Source of the DNA: Brenneria izadpanahii
GTDB lineage: Bacteria > Pseudomonadota > Gammaproteobacteria > Enterobacterales > Enterobacteriaceae
NCBI RefSeq assembly: GCF_017569925.1
Contig: NZ_CP050854.1
Location: 2,294,001 to 2,358,000, forward strand
DNA: 64,000 nucleotides
Reading direction: 5' to 3'
The notes beneath the pieces were generated by a model that saw only the letters and a program-made list of their open reading frames with translations, ran no database searches and was not told the DNA's origin. Shown in pieces: positions 18,152 to 37,640 of this stretch; positions within the stretch are counted from its first letter, which is position 1, and every line of letters starts with the position of its first letter. A program made the translations under genes and the position numbers.

Positions 18152-18964
18152 TTATCCCCCAAAAAGTCGTTTAAGGAAACTTTTCTTCTCTTCTTCAACG
18201 AAGCGGAAGGGCTTTTCTTCGCCTAACAAGCGGTCGACGGTATCAGCGTAGGCTTTACCCGCGTCGGCTTCGTTATCGAGAATAACCGGTTCGCCCTGGT
18301 TGGATGCGCGCAGCACCGACTGATCTTCAGGAATGACGCCCAGCAGCGGGATCCTGAGGATCTCCAACACATCTTCCATGCTCAGCATATCGCCGCGGCT
18401 TACCCGGCCAGGATTGTAGCGGGTCAGCAGCAGGTGCTCTTTTATCGGCTCTTCAGAACGTTCCGCACGACGTGATTTAGATGACAAAATGCCAAGAATA
18501 CGGTCGGAGTCGCGTACCGAAGAAACTTCCGGGTTGGTCGTGATAATGGCTTCGTCGGCGAAATAGAGCGCCATCAGCGCCCCGGTTTCAATACCGGCCG
18601 GAGAATCGCAGACGATGAAATCAAATTCCATTTCGTGCAGGTCGTTAAGGACTTTTTCAACGCCTTCACGGGTAAGCGCGTCTTTATCACGGGTTTGCGA
18701 TGCCGGCAGGATATACAGATTATCGGTGCGTTTGTCTTTAATCAGCGCCTGGTTTAATGTGGCATCGCCTTGAATGACATTAACAAAATCGTAAACCACC
18801 CGCCGCTCACATCCCATGATCAGGTCGAGGTTACGCAGACCGATGTCAAAGTCGATGACAACCGTCTTTTTTCCTTTCTGGGCTAAACCGGTAGCAATGG
18901 CCGCGCTTGAAGTGGTCTTGCCAACGCCCCCTTTACCCGATGTAACAACAATGATGCGTGCCAT
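18152..18964 (-). CDS. minD: Septum site-determining ATPase MinD
   Basis: MinD is a membrane-binding ParA-like ATPase that recruits MinC to the cell poles. The deviant Walker A motif is GKGGVGKTT at residues 10-18, followed by the conserved DFDIGLRNLDLIMG. The C-terminal amphipathic membrane-targeting sequence KKSFLKRLFGG is intact. Its 270 residues equal the E. coli length. It lies 22 bases after minC and 3 bases before minE. Confidence 0.98.
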   Translation of the reverse strand: MARIIVVTSGKGGVGKTTSSAAIATGLAQKGKKTVVIDFDIGLRNLDLIMGCERRVVYDFVNVIQGDATLNQALIKDKRTDNLYILPASQTRDKDALTREGVEKVLNDLHEMEFDFIVCDSPAGIETGALMALYFADEAIITTNPEVSSVRDSDRILGILSSKSRRAERSEEPIKEHLLLTRYNPGRVSRGDMLSMEDVLEILRIPLLGVIPEDQSVLRASNQGEPVILDNEADAGKAYADTVDRLLGEEKPFRFVEEEKKSFLKRLFGG

Positions 18965-22139: not shown

Positions 22140-23045
22140 ATGAACAGCCGATATCCCATCCCTAAAGATTTACTGGTGCTGACCACCGTCGTTAACAAGG
22201 GCAGCTTTGCCGGCGCCGCAGAAGAGTTGGGGCAGACGCCGGCTTTCGTCACCAAGCGGATACAATTTTTAGAGAGTCAGCTCGGCGTGAAATTGCTACA
22301 CCGCTCGTCACACGGCATTGCGCTGACGGAGAGCGGCAAGCTGGTATATCAACGCGGGGGCGATATCCTTGAACAGCTACAAAGCCTGCTTGACGCGGTT
22401 TCGCAGGTTAAGACGGAACCGAAAGGGATGGTGCGCATCGGCTGCAGTTTCGGCTTCGGGCGTAACTATATTGCGCCGGCGATTACGCAACTTATGGAGC
22501 GCTATCCGGAATTACAGATACATTTCGAACTTTTTGATCGCCAGATTGATTTACTTAAAGACCGAATCGATCTTGATATCCGGGTTAATGATGATATCGC
22601 CGATAATTGCATCGCCCGGCTGTTAACGAAAAACCAGCGTATACTATGCGCCGCTCCTGAATATATACGGCAGCGGGGAATGCCGGATTCGCTGGCGGCG
22701 CTGCGGCAACATGACTGCCTGATCACCAAGGAGCGCGATCAAACGGCGGGCGTCTGGGAATTGGAAAATAAGCAGGGCCGGAAATCGGTAAAAGTATCTG
22801 GCCATTTATCTTCCAATAGCGGAGAGATTGTTCTGCGCTGGGCGCTGGAAGGCAAAGGGATTATGCTGCGCTCGATGTGGGATATCGCTACGTTGCTGAA
22901 AGAAGGCGCGCTAATCCGGGTGTTGCCGGAGTATGCGCAAAGCGCCAATATTTGGGCGGTATACCAGACCCCGTTATATTCTTCCGCAAAGCTGCGGGTT
23001 TGCGTGGAACACTTTACTCGCTATTGTCAGCAACAGAAATTTTGA
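22140..23045 (+). CDS. ttdR: LysR-type regulator of tartrate utilisation
   Basis: This 301-residue LysR-family regulator has an N-terminal winged helix-turn-helix ([22 protein letters not shown], about 21-42) and a C-terminal ligand-binding domain. Blocks such as [29 protein letters not shown] and [29 protein letters not shown] match E. coli TtdR (YgiP) closely. In E. coli TtdR activates ttdABT. The gene is divergent from ttdA, as expected for autoregulated LysR genes. The ATG at 22140 has GAGGATC about 13 bases upstream. Confidence 0.9.
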
Positions 23046-32501: not shown

Positions 32502-33758
32502 ATGCGGGTTGCGATTCTAGGGAGTGGCGTTATTGGCGTCAGTACCGCCTGGTATCTGGCGCAGGCCGGGCATGAGGTAACCGTGATCGATCGGCAACCG
32601 GAACCGGCGCTTGAAACCAGTGCGGGAAACGCCGGACAAATCTCTCCCGGTTATTCAGCTCCCTGGGCCGCGCCGGGTATTCCGCTGAAAGCCGTCAAAT
32701 GGTTATTTCAACGCCATGCTCCGTTGGCTATTCGGCCAGACTTTTCCACTGAACAGTTAGGCTGGATGTGGCAGATGCTGCTGAATTGCGACGGCAGACA
32801 CTATAAAGTCAATAAAGCCCGTATGGTCCGGCTGGCGGAATATAGCCGCGATTGCTTACAGACGCTGCGTCAGAAAACCGATATCCACTATGAAGGACGA
32901 CAGGGCGGTACGTTGCAACTGTTCCGAACCGAGCAGCAGTACGAAAATGCGGTTCGCGATATTTCGGTATTAGAAGAGGCGGGAGTGCCTTATCAATTAC
33001 TGGATCGGCTCCAGCTATCGACGGTCGAACCGGCGCTGGCCAATGTGGCGGATAAACTTACCGGCGGTTTACGCTTGCCGAATGATGAAACGGGGGATTG
33101 TCAGCTATTTACCCGCAGCCTGGCGAAAATGGCCGAAGAGGCCGGCGTCGTCTTTAAGTTTGGTCAGGAAATCAGCCGGCTGCAGGTAGAAGGTCAGCAA
33201 GTCAGCGGCGTGCAATGTAACGGCGAAGCGGTAACCGCGGATGCGTATGTCATGGCCTGCGGCTCCTACTCGACGGGACTGCTGCGTAGCTGGTTCCATA
33301 TTCCGGTTTATCCGCTGAAGGGATACTCTTTGACTATTCCGTTGGCGAATGAGGCGGCGGCGCCGATCTCTACCGTACTGGATGAGACGTATAAAGTCGC
33401 CATCACGCGTTTTGACCAGCGCATCCGCGTAGGCGGCATGGCGGAAATCGTCGGTTTTAACACCGCGTTGAATGCGAAGCGCCGGGAAACGCTGGAGATG
33501 GTGGTTCGCGATCTCTACCCGAATGTGGGGCCGGTTGAACAGGCGACATTCTGGACCGGTCTGCGCCCTATGACGCCGGACGGAACGCCGTTAGTCGGGC
33601 GCTCCCCGCTAAAGAATCTGTATCTGAACACCGGACACGGCACGCTAGGATGGACGATGGCCTGTGGTTCGGGGCAACTGCTGGCCGATATTATTTCGGG
33701 TAAGACACCGGATATTCAATCCGATGATTTGTCCGTATTCCGTTACGCCAAGGTCTAA
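32502..33758 (+). CDS. dadA: D-amino acid dehydrogenase
   Basis: DadA oxidises D-alanine and other D-amino acids to keto acids, feeding electrons to the respiratory chain. The N-terminal FAD-binding motif is [15 protein letters not shown], and the C-terminal FAD segment reads [25 protein letters not shown]. The 418 residues are near the E. coli length. ATG at 32502 with GGGGGAG upstream. In E. coli dadX (alanine racemase) follows in the operon, but here the next gene is a convergent broken MFS gene whose stop overlaps the dadA stop. Confidence 0.95.
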
Positions 33759-34299
33759 CTCTGGGACAGTTCGGTAATGCTGCCCTTCAGCCTGCGGGTC
33801 AGCAGCCTGGCCCGTAGGGCCAGCAAACCCGCGCATAGCATGACCAATGCCAGTGATATTTTGGCTGGTAGAGGTAAAGCCATTGCCGCCAGCCCCAGTG
33901 CCGCGCCGCCTGCCATCTGAATAAAGCCGATCATCGCCGAAGCAATGCCGGCTTCATTCGAATAGGGCTCCAGGGCATAGCTGGTGGCCGGCCCCATCAG
34001 AAAAGCCAAACCGGCGCAGGACAGCGCGACCGGCAGCATGTAGCTCGGCCAGGTATCTTGTAAATGCGGCGGCAGCAGCGCAACCCCCAGGGTTAGGCTG
34101 AGAAATCCGGCGCCCATCAATAGGCTTCCCGTGGTCAAGCACACCGGGCGGCCAAGCTTACGAATAAGGCGGTTGGCGAAACGTTAAGAAAACCGGAAGT
34201 CCGGGCGGCGTCATCGCCATTCAGCCGGTCGCGTACGCAGCTGAAAATCGCGACGGCGGTGCAGCAGACGGCGAGTCCCTGAAAAATGTCCGCTGTTAA
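33755..34299 (-). pseudogene. Bcr/CflA-type drug efflux MFS gene, middle and 3' remnants
   Basis: Two remnants are fused out of frame. At 34190-34299 the minus strand reads ADIFQGLAVCCTAV ... VRDRLNGDDAARTSGF, the Bcr/CflA segment around helix 4. At 33755-34183 another frame reads FANRLIRKLGRPVCLTTGS and continues through the last helices to the C-terminus. A stop codon (34184-34186) blocks the second frame, and roughly 120 residues between them are deleted. The 5' part of the same kind of gene lies at 37286-37483, across the inserted segment. Function must be lost. Confidence 0.8.
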
Positions 34300-34565
34300 G
34301 TTTTTTGTGGAAATGCAGCGGGAAAATAAGTCATGCAGGACAATGGGTTAGACCATATTCTGGCCCTTTCCTGCTTTTGGCCTCAATACACTAGGCGCCA
34401 CATAGGGGCGTTGCGGTGGGAAGCCTTGAAGTAACGCGGCGAGTTCTGGCGAAGGCTACCGAGGGCATCCACCGCCGCAGCAGCTCAGAGCATCGTCCAA
34501 AGGCGAACACATAAGGCATGGACAGCCTCAACCTCCACTCGGCACCATCCACTCATTGACGAACG

Positions 34566-35255
34566 CTATGCATTATCCAGAATACGGCGACTGATTCCCA
34601 GCAGAAGGCAATCAAGGGCGAAATTCCATTCAGTGGCACTGCTCGTGCTGGTGCCCGATTCGGCGCGAAAGGCCAGCACCGGGTCTTGCGGAGATCGTTG
34701 CGCTAGTTGGCGAGTTAGATCGTCTAATTCACCTTGCGAGCCCTTTGCCATCCATGCAGCCTCTATGGCTCCGTGTCCATGAGCAAGGGCGAATACGGCG
34801 GACAGCGATGCCGTAATGAGATGGGGCGGCAGACCGCCGTCTGACAACGCATTGGCTGCCAGAGTTGTCATTGACGTTACGTTGGGGCCTGCATTGAGAT
34901 ACCGGCCTGCCAGCGTGGGCAACCAGGGATGGGCAACAAGTAGTCGCCGATAGTCATCTGCCAGTTGACGCAGCACGGCATCCCAAGGGCCGGGGGCCAC
35001 CTTCAATGCGCCCATGACATGATCTTGGGCGAGTTCAAGTACGTCATCTTTATGACGGACATGGGCATAAAAGGCCATCGCGCTGACACCGAGTCGTCCC
35101 CCTAGGGCTCGCATGGTGAATGCTTCCAGGCCATTCTCATCAAGCAACTGCGCAGTGTGGCTTGCAATAAGGACACGGTCAATGGTGCCTTTTGCAATTT
35201 TCCGGCTGGTTGGCTGCACCAGCCACACGCTCATTGCGGTGCTTTTGCCAGTCAT
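34566..35255 (-). CDS. TetR-family transcriptional repressor
   Basis: The 229-residue protein has the TetR helix-turn-helix near the N-terminus (MRALGGRLGVSAMAFYAHVRHKDDVLEL, about 51-78) and a C-terminal ligand-binding domain of the TetR_C type with an FALAHGHGAIEAAW segment. I chose the ATG at 35255 because GGGAGA lies 10 bases upstream; longer in-frame starts at up to 35372 have no support. It is divergent from the ABC-F gene across about 200 bases that contain a dyad over the ABC-F promoter, so it probably represses that gene and itself. The inducer is unknown. Confidence 0.85.
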   Translation of the reverse strand: MTGKSTAMSVWLVQPTSRKIAKGTIDRVLIASHTAQLLDENGLEAFTMRALGGRLGVSAMAFYAHVRHKDDVLELAQDHVMGALKVAPGPWDAVLRQLADDYRRLLVAHPWLPTLAGRYLNAGPNVTSMTTLAANALSDGGLPPHLITASLSAVFALAHGHGAIEAAWMAKGSQGELDDLTRQLAQRSPQDPVLAFRAESGTSTSSATEWNFALDCLLLGISRRILDNA

Positions 35256-35395
35256 TTGTACTTTATCTCCCATCGTGGTCGATGCGTCATGGTTCAGTAG
35301 CCAGTGCGCAAGGGGTAAGTGTCGCATTGCCGATGCCGACCCCGCCAGGGTACCAACAGCAGAGACAACCATTAGCGCAAGTATCTGCCATCTTA

Positions 35396-35424
35396 TTTAC
35401 GTTGTAAAGAAGATGATCTATCAT
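35396..35424 (+). promoter_or_regulatory. ABC-F promoter with overlapping dyad operator
   Basis: TTTACG (35396-35401) and TATCAT (35419-35424) are 17 bases apart, a good sigma-70 layout. The perfect inverted repeat TTTAC-GTT-GTAAA (35396-35408) overlaps the -35. This is a fitting site for the neighbouring TetR protein to block RNA polymerase. Confidence 0.6.
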
Positions 35425-35459
35425 TGTCTCCACTGCGAACCCAATGAAGGGAGTTCTCT

Positions 35460-37067
35460 ATGTCTATGCCCTGCATTTTGTTCAACCGAACCTCTTTTAG
35501 CTGGCCAGACGGCACCCGCGTCCTGGACGACACGACGGCAGCTTTCGGGCCAGGACGCACCGGCCTGATTGGTGACAACGGTGCAGGCAAAACAACGATT
35601 CTTCGATTGATAAACGGAGAATTGGCACCTACCTCTGGGACGATCAACGTTTCTGGCGAGATTGGCTATCTTCCTCAAAATCTGACGCTGGCGACGGACG
35701 CTCTTGTTTCTGATTTGCTAGGAATTCGCCCGCAGTTGGACGCCCTCGCGGCGATTGAGGCGGGAGAAACGGCCTCTATGCTTTATGAGACGCTAGGTGA
35801 TGGCTGGGACGTCCGTGCCCGTGCAGAAGCTGTGCTTTCCAGAGTCGGATTAGGGGCGTTGGGCCTCGATCGCTCAGTGGGCACGCTGTCAGGGGGAGAG
35901 GCCATGCTTGTCTCTCTTCTCGGACTGCGCTTGGCCGCGACGCCAATCGTGTTGCTGGATGAGCCGACAAACAATCTCGATGCAGTTGCTCGGCAACAGT
36001 TCTATGAAGTCGTCTCCTATTGGCAAGGTACTTTGGTTGTGGTCAGCCACGACATCGAACTACTTGACCTCATGCAAGAGACGGTGGAGTTGCATGACGG
36101 AAAACTTGAAATCTATGGCGGCGGATATACCGCCTACAAAGAATTGGTAACGACCGAGCAAGCAGCCGCAGCGCAAGCGCTGCGTACCGCTGAACAGGGG
36201 CTGCGCAAAGAGCGGCGACAACGGCAAGAGGCCGAAACCAAACTTGCCCGCCGGACTCATAGTGCGGACAAAAGCCACGCGACCAAGCGTGCCGCAAAAA
36301 TTGTCATGAATACCCGTCGATTCCAGGCGCAGGTATCCGCCGGGAAACTGCGGGAAAGCCACGATGATCGCATCCAGTCCGCGCGAGACATCGTGGCCGA
36401 GCAGAAATCTCGTCTGCGCGACGACGATAGGGTTCGCATTGAACTTCCTGACCCTGCTGTTCATGCTGGTCGTCGTTTGATCGAATTGCACCACGCTGGC
36501 GGCATCCACACCATCATCGGGCCGCAGAGAGTTGCAATCACAGGGCGCAATGGTGTTGGCAAGACGCGCTTGCTTGCAACGATTTTCGACGATGCGCTGC
36601 GTGCGTCACGGGCAACCCACGCTGTGCCCATCACCTCGGCAATTGGATACCTGTCCCAACGTCTTGACGGTCTTGATAACAACCTTTCTGCCATTGAGAA
36701 CGTCCACACAGCGGCAAAGCGAGTACCGACCGGTGAAATACGTACCCAACTGGCCAGGTTCCTGATTCGTGGTGAGGCAGCAAACCGATCAGCAGGCACG
36801 CTGTCCGGTGGCGAACGGTTTCGCGTTGCCTTGGCGCGCCTATTACTGGCAGACCCGCCCCATCAAATCCTTGTCCTTGATGAGCCGACCAACAATCTGG
36901 ACATCAAGACCCGACAGGCCCTCATTGACAGCCTGCGCGTCTATCGCGGGGGGCTTCTTATTGTCAGTCACGATCATGACTTGCTTGAGCAGCTTGGGCT
37001 CGATCTGCAATTAGCGCTGGATGATTCGGGATGGCTCACTGTTGCGACAGAGACAGCATTGACGTAA
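35460..37067 (+). CDS. ABC-F family ATPase, candidate antibiotic-resistance ribosome protection factor
   Basis: This 535-residue soluble protein has two ABC domains and no membrane helix, the ABC-F layout. Domain 1: Walker A GDNGAGKTT (about 38-46), signature LSGGEAMLVSLL, Walker B VLLDEPTNNLD. Domain 2: Walker A GRNGVGKTRLL (about 360), signature LSGGERFRVALARLLL, Walker B LVLDEPTNNLD. A charged, probably helical linker (about 215-330) joins them. It is not EttA, Uup, YheS or YbiT. ABC-F proteins bind the ribosomal E site; those under dedicated repressors often protect against antibiotics, but this is inference. The ATG at 35460 has AAGGGAG upstream. Confidence 0.85.
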   Translation: MSMPCILFNRTSFSWPDGTRVLDDTTAAFGPGRTGLIGDNGAGKTTILRLINGELAPTSGTINVSGEIGYLPQNLTLATDALVSDLLGIRPQLDALAAIEAGETASMLYETLGDGWDVRARAEAVLSRVGLGALGLDRSVGTLSGGEAMLVSLLGLRLAATPIVLLDEPTNNLDAVARQQFYEVVSYWQGTLVVVSHDIELLDLMQETVELHDGKLEIYGGGYTAYKELVTTEQAAAAQALRTAEQGLRKERRQRQEAETKLARRTHSADKSHATKRAAKIVMNTRRFQAQVSAGKLRESHDDRIQSARDIVAEQKSRLRDDDRVRIELPDPAVHAGRRLIELHHAGGIHTIIGPQRVAITGRNGVGKTRLLATIFDDALRASRATHAVPITSAIGYLSQRLDGLDNNLSAIENVHTAAKRVPTGEIRTQLARFLIRGEAANRSAGTLSGGERFRVALARLLLADPPHQILVLDEPTNNLDIKTRQALIDSLRVYRGGLLIVSHDHDLLEQLGLDLQLALDDSGWLTVATETALT

Positions 37068-37095
37068 CCACTTTCTATGATGCAGGGGAAGCAAA

Positions 37096-37209
37096 TTGGA
37101 ATTTCGCCATCTTCGTTGCTTTCTCGCCGTGGCCGAAGAACTTCACTTCGCCCGCGCCGCGCAGAAACTGCACGCAGGTCGCCGCGTGCCGCACAGCCGA
37201 CGTGACTAG
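37096..37209 (+). pseudogene. Truncated LysR-family regulator start
   Basis: From a TTG at 37096 (AGGGGAAG upstream) the frame reads EFRHLRCFLAVAEELHFARAAQKLH, the classic LysR N-terminus up to the helix-turn-helix. Homology then breaks off and the frame stops at 37209 after 37 codons. It is a fragment of a LysR gene cut at the segment's right end. From 37210 to 37312 nothing is recognised. Confidence 0.75.
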
Positions 37210-37285
37210 CCGCCCGTTGGCCGGGCTTACCTATTTGCTAAGGCCCGACAAGGTCGCATCCGAGTCTCTTCGGGCTCCAAGTCCT

Positions 37286-37483
37286 CTATATATTCCATTT
37301 CACCCGCGGCAGCGCTAACTGACCGAGCCCCATGACCATGATGAAAAGCGCAATGGTTGATTGGATCAATGGTTCAGGACTGTTTAAACCGTGAGCGATA
37401 GCGGGAATCAGGGGCAAATAAATATCGTTCCCTAGCGGCCCCAGCAACACCAGCGCCAGCAAGAGCAGAACAAACTTTTGCAT
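37286..37483 (-). pseudogene. Bcr/CflA-type drug efflux MFS gene, 5' remnant
   Basis: From the ATG at 37483 the frame encodes the first helix and the start of the second of a Bcr/CflA exporter: LLGPLGNDIYLPLIPAIAHGL (family LSIDMYLPALP) and FIMVMGLGQL. Homology ends at GLGQL (about 37313) and a stop follows nine codons later. The remaining parts of the gene lie at 33755-34299 on the same strand. Confidence 0.8.
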
Positions 37484-37640
37484 GAGAAAACAGAAACCTG
37501 AATTTTACCTTTCCGCTAAGGGTAATGCCCGGCGGCGAATGGAAGCGTTATATCGGTGACGTTGTAACGAACGTGGCCTTGATAACCGTATATGGCGCGG
37601 GCGCCGCCGCGTCAGCTTAGGCGGGAAAAGGGGACGGCAG

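Follow-up and report, generated by a model that had tools for sequence, protein, structure and literature searches.

How did a divergent pair of genes, one encoding a TetR-family regulator and the other an ABC-F ATPase, come to lie inside a drug exporter gene of Brenneria izadpanahii, and what might the pair do there? Members of this genus are tree-associated bacteria and tree pathogens. We examined the locus within a 64,000-nucleotide stretch (the window; contig NZ_CP050854.1, positions 2,294,001 to 2,358,000, or G000:C1:2294001-2358000) of a 5.33-Mb genome in a single contig. The best explanation as a whole, which we regard as likely, is that the pair lies in the remnant of a Tn4371-family integrative and conjugative element (ICE) and that the ABC-F protein is a drug-protective factor under TetR control. 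The ICE origin of the insert appears nearly certain, because its terminus is homologous to three ICE ends, an attachment (att)-like core lies at its edge, and a piece of traR follows the cargo; it also draws on a congener (G149) that carries such an ICE and on an exporter gene that is intact in four of eight congeners. The first-pass annotation of this DNA had described the gene layout and had missed both this vehicle and the fit of the LysR piece to its traR.

The TetR gene, the divergent ABC-F gene, the LysR piece, and the two pump remnants that it listed are all present, and no gene of the insert other than TetR and ABC-F (34566-35252 and 35460-37067) looks intact. The locus is composed as follows (aa, amino acids).

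33755 to 34181, minus strand: 3' remnant of the exporter gene, from alignment to the intact 399-aa gene of four other Brenneria genomes (G150, G155, G154, and G151)
34182 to 34286, minus strand: internal 105-bp exporter piece, bounded by a 373-bp deletion on one side and the insert on the other, 90% identical to G150 and 89% to G155
34279 to 34286, no strand assigned: att-like core CTGAAAAA, which reads TTTTTCAG on the opposite strand and is shared with the uninterrupted relative
34287 to 34424, no strand assigned: Tn4371-family ICE terminal sequence (trb-side end), aligned with ends from Pandoraea, Delftia, and Brenneria G149
34566 to 35252, minus strand: intact TetR-family regulator, 228 aa, with PF00440 and PF02909, 93% to a Pseudomonas aeruginosa protein
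35460 to 37067, plus strand: intact ABC-F ATPase, 535 aa, with two intact ABC domains
37096 to 37173, plus strand: 5' piece of traR, which in Tn4371-family ICEs encodes a LysR-type regulator; matches Pandoraea TraR at 81% over 26 aa
about 37178 to 37270, plus strand: probable 3' piece of traR in another frame, aligning to TraR residues 246-282
37301 to 37483, minus strand: 5' remnant of the exporter gene, with homology to all four intact relatives from 37329

From 34280 onward, the left edge of the insert can be aligned to one end of a Pandoraea element of the Tn4371 type, where the ICE end sits 136 bp past the DUF2274 gene that closes the trb operon. The local alignment scored 70 against the Pandoraea end and, more weakly, 38 against the G149 end, compared with a maximum of 26 among 5,000 unrelated pieces. 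The same ICE end was matched in two Delftia records, one of which was inspected. All four ends (window, Pandoraea, Delftia, and G149) align, and an invariant TGTCCGCTGT adjoins the att core, so that the window has a conserved terminal sequence inside the core, as Tn4371-family ICEs do. The reverse complement of the published ICE right-end primer RE1, as given in the available text of PMC2789088, contains the same CTGTCAAGTCTT as the Pandoraea end. The ICE-end piece had no match in E. coli genomes.

The boundary of the insert coincides with the att-like core. Tn4371-family ICEs have an 8-bp att core of consensus TTTTT[C/T][A/G]T at the junction; TTTTTCAT has been published as attB, and TTTTTTAT and TTTTTTGT as its variants (PMC2789088, available text). 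Downstream of the cargo, at a fixed place, these elements carry traR, whose product is a LysR-type transfer activator (PMC11448139, available text). The insert follows this arrangement with pieces of traR only: about 26 codons, beginning with a TTG start codon at 37096, stand 28 bp past the ABC-F stop (37067), both on the plus strand. The DNA match to this 5' piece starts 11-12 bp ahead of the start codon in two records and inside the start codon in pTTS12 and G149. It matches 100 plasmid records; in all three that were inspected traG comes after one small gene, and in one of these three the LysR gene itself is unannotated.

A different route for the cassette (homologous recombination, a transposon, or an integron), with the ICE likeness arising by chance, has to be weighed at this point, and several observations speak for it or against an ICE. 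First, the window core TTTTTCAG shares 7 of 8 bases with TTTTTCAT and has a different last base, which leaves it one off the published cores; the Pandoraea end, TTTTTCAA, departs from the published attB at the same base. Second, no further copy of CTGAAAAA or TTTTTCAG occurs in 34271-37484, and the direct repeat of the att core is thus missing from this interval. Third, the 5' LysR piece alone is not proof of traR, since other Brenneria LysR genes match it at about 80%, one of these matches (G149, contig 40, 27875-27951) being the traR of G149's own ICE. Fourth, the second traR piece is weak. It scored 55 (G149), 51, 44, and 41 against four TraRs, whose agreement is no independent evidence because they are homologues. 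Eight random window pieces scored 52-78, of which seven fall within a real LysR gene (22181-22289); the best piece outside it scored 52, so that 55 is barely above chance. In addition, no transposase was recognised by eye among the larger open reading frames (ORFs) of the insert. Against such a route stand the terminus score, far beyond the maximum of its null, the boundary at an att-like core, the mutual alignment of four ends, and traR in its expected place. We regard it as strongly disfavoured and very improbable. Since the terminus carries the argument for an ICE, the weakness of the second traR piece leaves the odds of that origin unchanged.

For the LysR gene that had been described as cut, a decayed traR is the best reading. 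A simple cut is improbable: after the first 26 or so codons comes, in another frame, sequence resembling TraR residues 246-282, and about 37178-37270 is a probable part of the same decayed gene.

Little else of the element appears to be left. We searched with 25 ICE proteins from two records, a set that does not include int and TrbB, and traR was the only one with a match at the insert. A second traR match (22164-22613, 25%) and a ParA match (18485-18955, 27%) seem to reflect ordinary family likeness. TraG was not found in the source genome; among the 11 genomes and records searched, three were positive, namely pTTS12, Brenneria G149, and the record from which the query came. The relaxase, traG, and trb core genes typical of the family are absent from the insert, and we therefore call it a remnant and not an ICE. 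In the congener G149, by comparison, a Tn4371-family ICE is accompanied by traG, trb, traR, and relaxase genes. That element occupies contig 40 (L093-L095) from 10461 to the contig end at 40273, and its far end lies beyond the contig. Next to its traR it carries, as cargo, a chloramphenicol efflux gene of the CmlA/FloR type (600.6 bits against a cut-off of 450; L094:7962-9149), and three tyrosine-recombinase-like genes in a row split trbI, inside the trbI/DUF2274 end (L093:11141-14312).

The insert shares its terminus, its att-like core, and the order of cargo then traR on one strand with the ICEs of Pandoraea (NZ_CP113828), pTTS12, and G149 contig 40. It differs from them in keeping 3 kb only, with no traG, trb, or relaxase genes. 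It also differs from the usual Tn4371-family layout, where the terminus lies beyond the trb genes and traR points towards them: in the window the cargo is directly inside the terminus and traR points away. This order and orientation resemble those of alpha-type relatives, in which traR is reversed and downstream of the mating genes (PMC11448139, available text), and the layout would fit such a relative after one large deletion. The usual layout followed by an inversion and two deletions could also account for it.

The history that is well supported begins with integration of a Tn4371-family ICE at the 8-bp CTGAAAAA site inside a Brenneria Bcr/CflA-type exporter gene. Nearly all of the ICE was later lost, including the transfer genes and the opposite end, along with a second att copy if there was one, together with 109 bp of the exporter. 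With the decay of traR, one ICE terminus, the TetR/ABC-F cargo, and pieces of traR were left.

The state of the exporter gene was determined by a DNA search of nine Brenneria genomes (eight besides the source) followed by realignment. An intact 399-aa Bcr/CflA-type gene, which the first-pass annotation had proposed looking for, is present at this place in four of the eight (G150, G155, G154, and G151). It was not found there in G149, G152, G114, or G153 by the same procedure. The exporter gene was possibly lost more than once within the genus, given that 4/8 congeners lack it at the equivalent of 33755-37483. The neighbours yeaH and yeaG are common to the window and its relatives, as is a dadA-like gene in most of them. 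The G150 exporter shares 99% identity with a protein of Brenneria goodwinii, and further relatives occur in Pectobacterium, Serratia, and Yersinia.

In the window, 34287-37300 (3,014 bp) replaces 109 bp of the intact G150 gene. Apart from the insert, 373 bp of the G155 exporter are missing at 34181/34182, within the 3' remnant, and the exporter has therefore been damaged at least twice. Together, these differences lead us to read the old gene as broken by the insertion, with deletions that came later or together with it. The remnants reported earlier are thus real, and their limits shift: the 3' remnant ends at 34286-34288 and not at 34299, and alignment of the 5' remnant starts at 37301 against G150 and at 37320-37329 against the other three intact relatives. 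That the cassette was acquired and disrupted the exporter gene agrees both with the uninterrupted sites in these congeners and with its distribution: at E<=1e-100 the ABC-F protein was found in the source genome only, among 149 genomes of the family. The cassette is thus not ancestral across the family as sampled.

What kind of protein does the cargo encode? Its catalytic glutamates, E168 and E475, show no variation across 35 aligned sequences, as expected of the ABC domains of antibiotic resistance (ARE) ABC-F proteins. Against the NCBIfam models it scored 174.8 bits to EttA and 168.2 to Uup, with 163.2 and 152 bits to two further housekeeping models, nowhere near the cut-offs of these families. 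We take the last two models to be YbiT and YheS, respectively. The genome's own EttA, Uup, YheS, and YbiT exceed their family cut-offs. In a tree of 32 sequences, the window protein fell in an Actinomycetota clade (support 100/99), to which neither PoxtA2 nor any of these four housekeeping proteins belonged. Its nearest neighbours were P0002 (87%) and P0003 (76%), both known only from short contigs, followed by Actinomycetota proteins. The tree contains long branches (own_6th, Acin, and PoxtA2) and 13 rows of unusual composition, and it was used solely to place the window protein in a clade. As first proposed, then, the protein is not of a housekeeping type, judging by tree placement and model scores. 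The comparison with resistance clades was a mixed one: PoxtA2 and two ARE4-like proteins were the only known resistance proteins in the tree, and the other clades were compared through family models.

The build of the protein also sets it apart. Its interdomain region is 163 aa long, compared with 139-140 aa in the genome's own YheS, YbiT, and Uup, and its arm region (Walker A to signature) is 105 aa, compared with 116-124 aa in the four own housekeeping proteins. This long interdomain region and short arm suggest a resistance-like build, in line with the linker of ARE1-5, which is extended by about 30 aa on average (PMC6723617, available text).

At E<=1e-90, only the source genome and one other (36%) had a match to the ABC-F protein among 398 genomes of the phylum. 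Relatives at E<=1e-150 and 50-55% identity occurred in 6/396 Actinomycetota genomes and in 14/298 genomes of the order of the best one. Among the 120 ABC-F homologues listed, 15 rows named an organism, and all 15 organisms belong to Actinomycetota. The 90% cluster of the protein (P0001) has eight member sequences.

Relatives of the TetR protein were few (23 at E<=0.001). The best was a 93% match from P. aeruginosa (P0121), followed by P0122 (82%) and a Kribbella protein (61%). More distant relatives (E<=1e-20, 28-43% identity) occurred in 23/298 genomes of one Actinomycetota order; at E<=1e-40, none was found in 299 genomes of the family of G404 in a search without a positive control. P0122 (TetR) and P0003 (ABC-F) probably lie on one contig, because their longest contig is of the same size (5,726 bases) and each occurs on four contigs. 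In one Streptomyces plasmid a TetR homologue lies about 6.7 kb from an ABC-F relative. The two genes themselves had no DNA match in the plasmid, phage, or E. coli collections; at the protein level, plasmids contained relatives under 60% identity only, viral contigs had no match, and a scan of genome contigs returned distant relatives only. The pair probably moved from Actinomycetota to Gram-negative bacteria by way of a pool of ICE genes in which Pseudomonas has a share.

The TetR protein scored 27.6 bits to TetR_N (cut-off 24) and 23.2 bits to the C-terminal domain (cut-off 21). Its start is probably at 35252 and not at 35372, because homologues start there. The two genes are divergent, with a gap of 207 bp that contains the following candidate regulatory sites.

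35380 to 35408, minus strand: sigma-70-like promoter candidate for TetR, first hexamer inside the palindrome
35389 to 35415, no strand assigned: 27-bp palindrome CATCTTATTTAC-gtt-GTAAAGAAGATG with 12-nt arms, 92% complementary, candidate TetR operator
35396 to 35424, plus strand: sigma-70-like promoter candidate for ABC-F, first hexamer inside the palindrome

The palindrome thus overlaps both divergent -35 candidates; three sigma-70-like sites were found in 34200-37500, compared with 1.8 expected.

From this arrangement we propose that TetR binds the palindrome and represses both genes. A small molecule, probably a drug acting on the large ribosomal subunit, would release TetR, and the ABC-F protein would then bind the ribosomal E site and clear the drug, like known resistance ABC-F proteins. 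Ribosome protection under TetR control is, in our estimate, fairly probable. The first-pass annotation had regarded an adjacent repressor as a pattern of inducible ribosome-protection genes; this finds no backing in the available text of PMC10201436 and PMC12421871, which describe induction through upstream ORFs instead.

Several observations weigh against this proposal. The best NCBIfam model for the protein, ribo_prot_ABC_F, scored 314.6 bits, below its cut-off of 380, and the protein is far below the cut-off of every listed NCBIfam ARE model. Linker and arm are not diagnostic, since PoxtA2, a known factor, has an interdomain region of 148 aa and an arm of 126 aa. The predicted resistance factors include AAF1-5 and BAF1-3 and leave out AAF6 (PMC6723617, available text), and the clade could be an Actinomycetota group without a predicted resistance role, such as AAF6. 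The intergenic gap is slightly above the 200-bp rule of PMC3511530, in which 5/5 TetR-family proteins with gaps below 200 bp repressed their neighbours and, at longer gaps, 3/4 had no effect and 1/4 activated. The palindrome is suggestive only and moderately unusual, its score being reached by 4/500 plain shuffles, 10/1000 dinucleotide shuffles, and 11/303 other 207-bp window pieces. The GC content of the two genes is 57%, compared with 66-72% in 11 measured Actinomycetota loci. Finally, no TetR homologue adjoined the ABC-F relative at any of 20 distinct Actinomycetota loci (flanks mostly about 1.5 kb), and no ABC-F relative was found in the flanks of distant TetR relatives at 20 further loci. 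These two counts give no support to the idea of an old actinobacterial pair; as far as the two groups were sampled, neither had the pairing from its ancestor.

The same observations could be accommodated if the insert is an ICE remnant whose ABC-F protein is a general actinobacterial translation factor, acting on hard-to-translate sequences, and whose TetR senses a metabolite. No tested member was identified in the clade, the NCBIfam cut-off is missed, and the Actinomycetota relatives have no TetR neighbour. A general factor is harder to reconcile with carriage as ICE cargo, with the long interdomain region, and with absence of the protein from the rest of the genus and family as sampled. Moreover, a 48%-identical clade relative is encoded on a Streptomyces xanthii plasmid (L038:2980-7238), where its gene and a second ABC-F gene stand on either side of a gene for virginiamycin B lyase. 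We consider the translation-factor reading unlikely.

Less probable still is a dead cassette, in which TetR and ABC-F would owe their intact state solely to recent arrival and would share the decay of traR and the exporter. All of the sequence surrounding the pair is indeed damaged; both genes are, however, full length with conserved motifs. On our main reading, the pair may have been kept as useful while its surroundings decayed.

We also offer a bolder and, at present, doubtful extension, in which TetR, ABC-F, and traR of the parent ICE formed one drug-responsive unit coupling ribosome protection to excision and transfer. A ribosome-targeting drug would release TetR, and traR, in the same transcription unit, would trigger excision and transfer. 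Under this tentative reading, what remains in Brenneria would be the fossil of such a circuit, with a broken traR and an ABC-F protein that came from actinobacteria and fits none of the named resistance families. Our literature search, to which most subscription papers were closed, returned no TetR-controlled ABC-F in a Tn4371-family ICE and no Tn4371 ICE in Brenneria.

Known systems match the proposed TetR-controlled, ICE-borne ABC-F in part. The closest precedent is msr(E), another ABC-F gene, carried as cargo by the Tn4371-family ICETn4371 6385 of P. aeruginosa, an element with core genes and both ends (PMC6123621, available text). Msr(E) belongs to another ABC-F family, and the window protein reached 208 bits with the Msr model, whose cut-off is 680. 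The ARE5 proteins (TiaA, Are5sc, and LmrC) and the AAF groups, compared by description, share the two-domain ABC-F build, an extended linker, and the phylum of the window protein's clade. For TiaA and Are5sc, the available text of PMC12421871 describes upstream-ORF regulation and mentions no TetR repressor, whereas the window ABC-F has a divergent TetR. Divergent pairs of the tetR/tetA type share the gene orientation, a palindrome over both promoter candidates, and the PF02909 domain; they differ in that the target here is an ABC-F ATPase and not a pump, and the window TetR scored 36.2 bits against a tetracycline-repressor cut-off of 265.

The locus shows a probable route of an actinobacterial-type ABC-F into Gram-negative bacteria, by way of an ICE family known to carry clinical resistance genes and with a regulator that has a 93% relative in P. 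aeruginosa. It also provides a testable case of an ABC-F gene under a TetR repressor, upstream of an ICE transfer activator.

Plasmid neighbourhoods of ABC-F relatives give context and are no test of function. On neighbouring branches, a Klebsiella pneumoniae plasmid gene (NZ_CP110519, L036) adjoins IS26, and an E. coli plasmid gene (NZ_CP041443, L037) lies near tet(X4), ISVsa3, and a CatB-related gene; both are annotated merely as encoding ATP-binding proteins. In an Empedobacter plasmid, such a gene adjoins estT. The source genome itself has a sixth ABC-F gene (G000:C1:1127624-1129054; L025:1228-2946), whose 572-aa product scored 307.9 bits with the ribosomal-protection-like model, against a cut-off of 380, and in the tree forms a long branch next to YheS.

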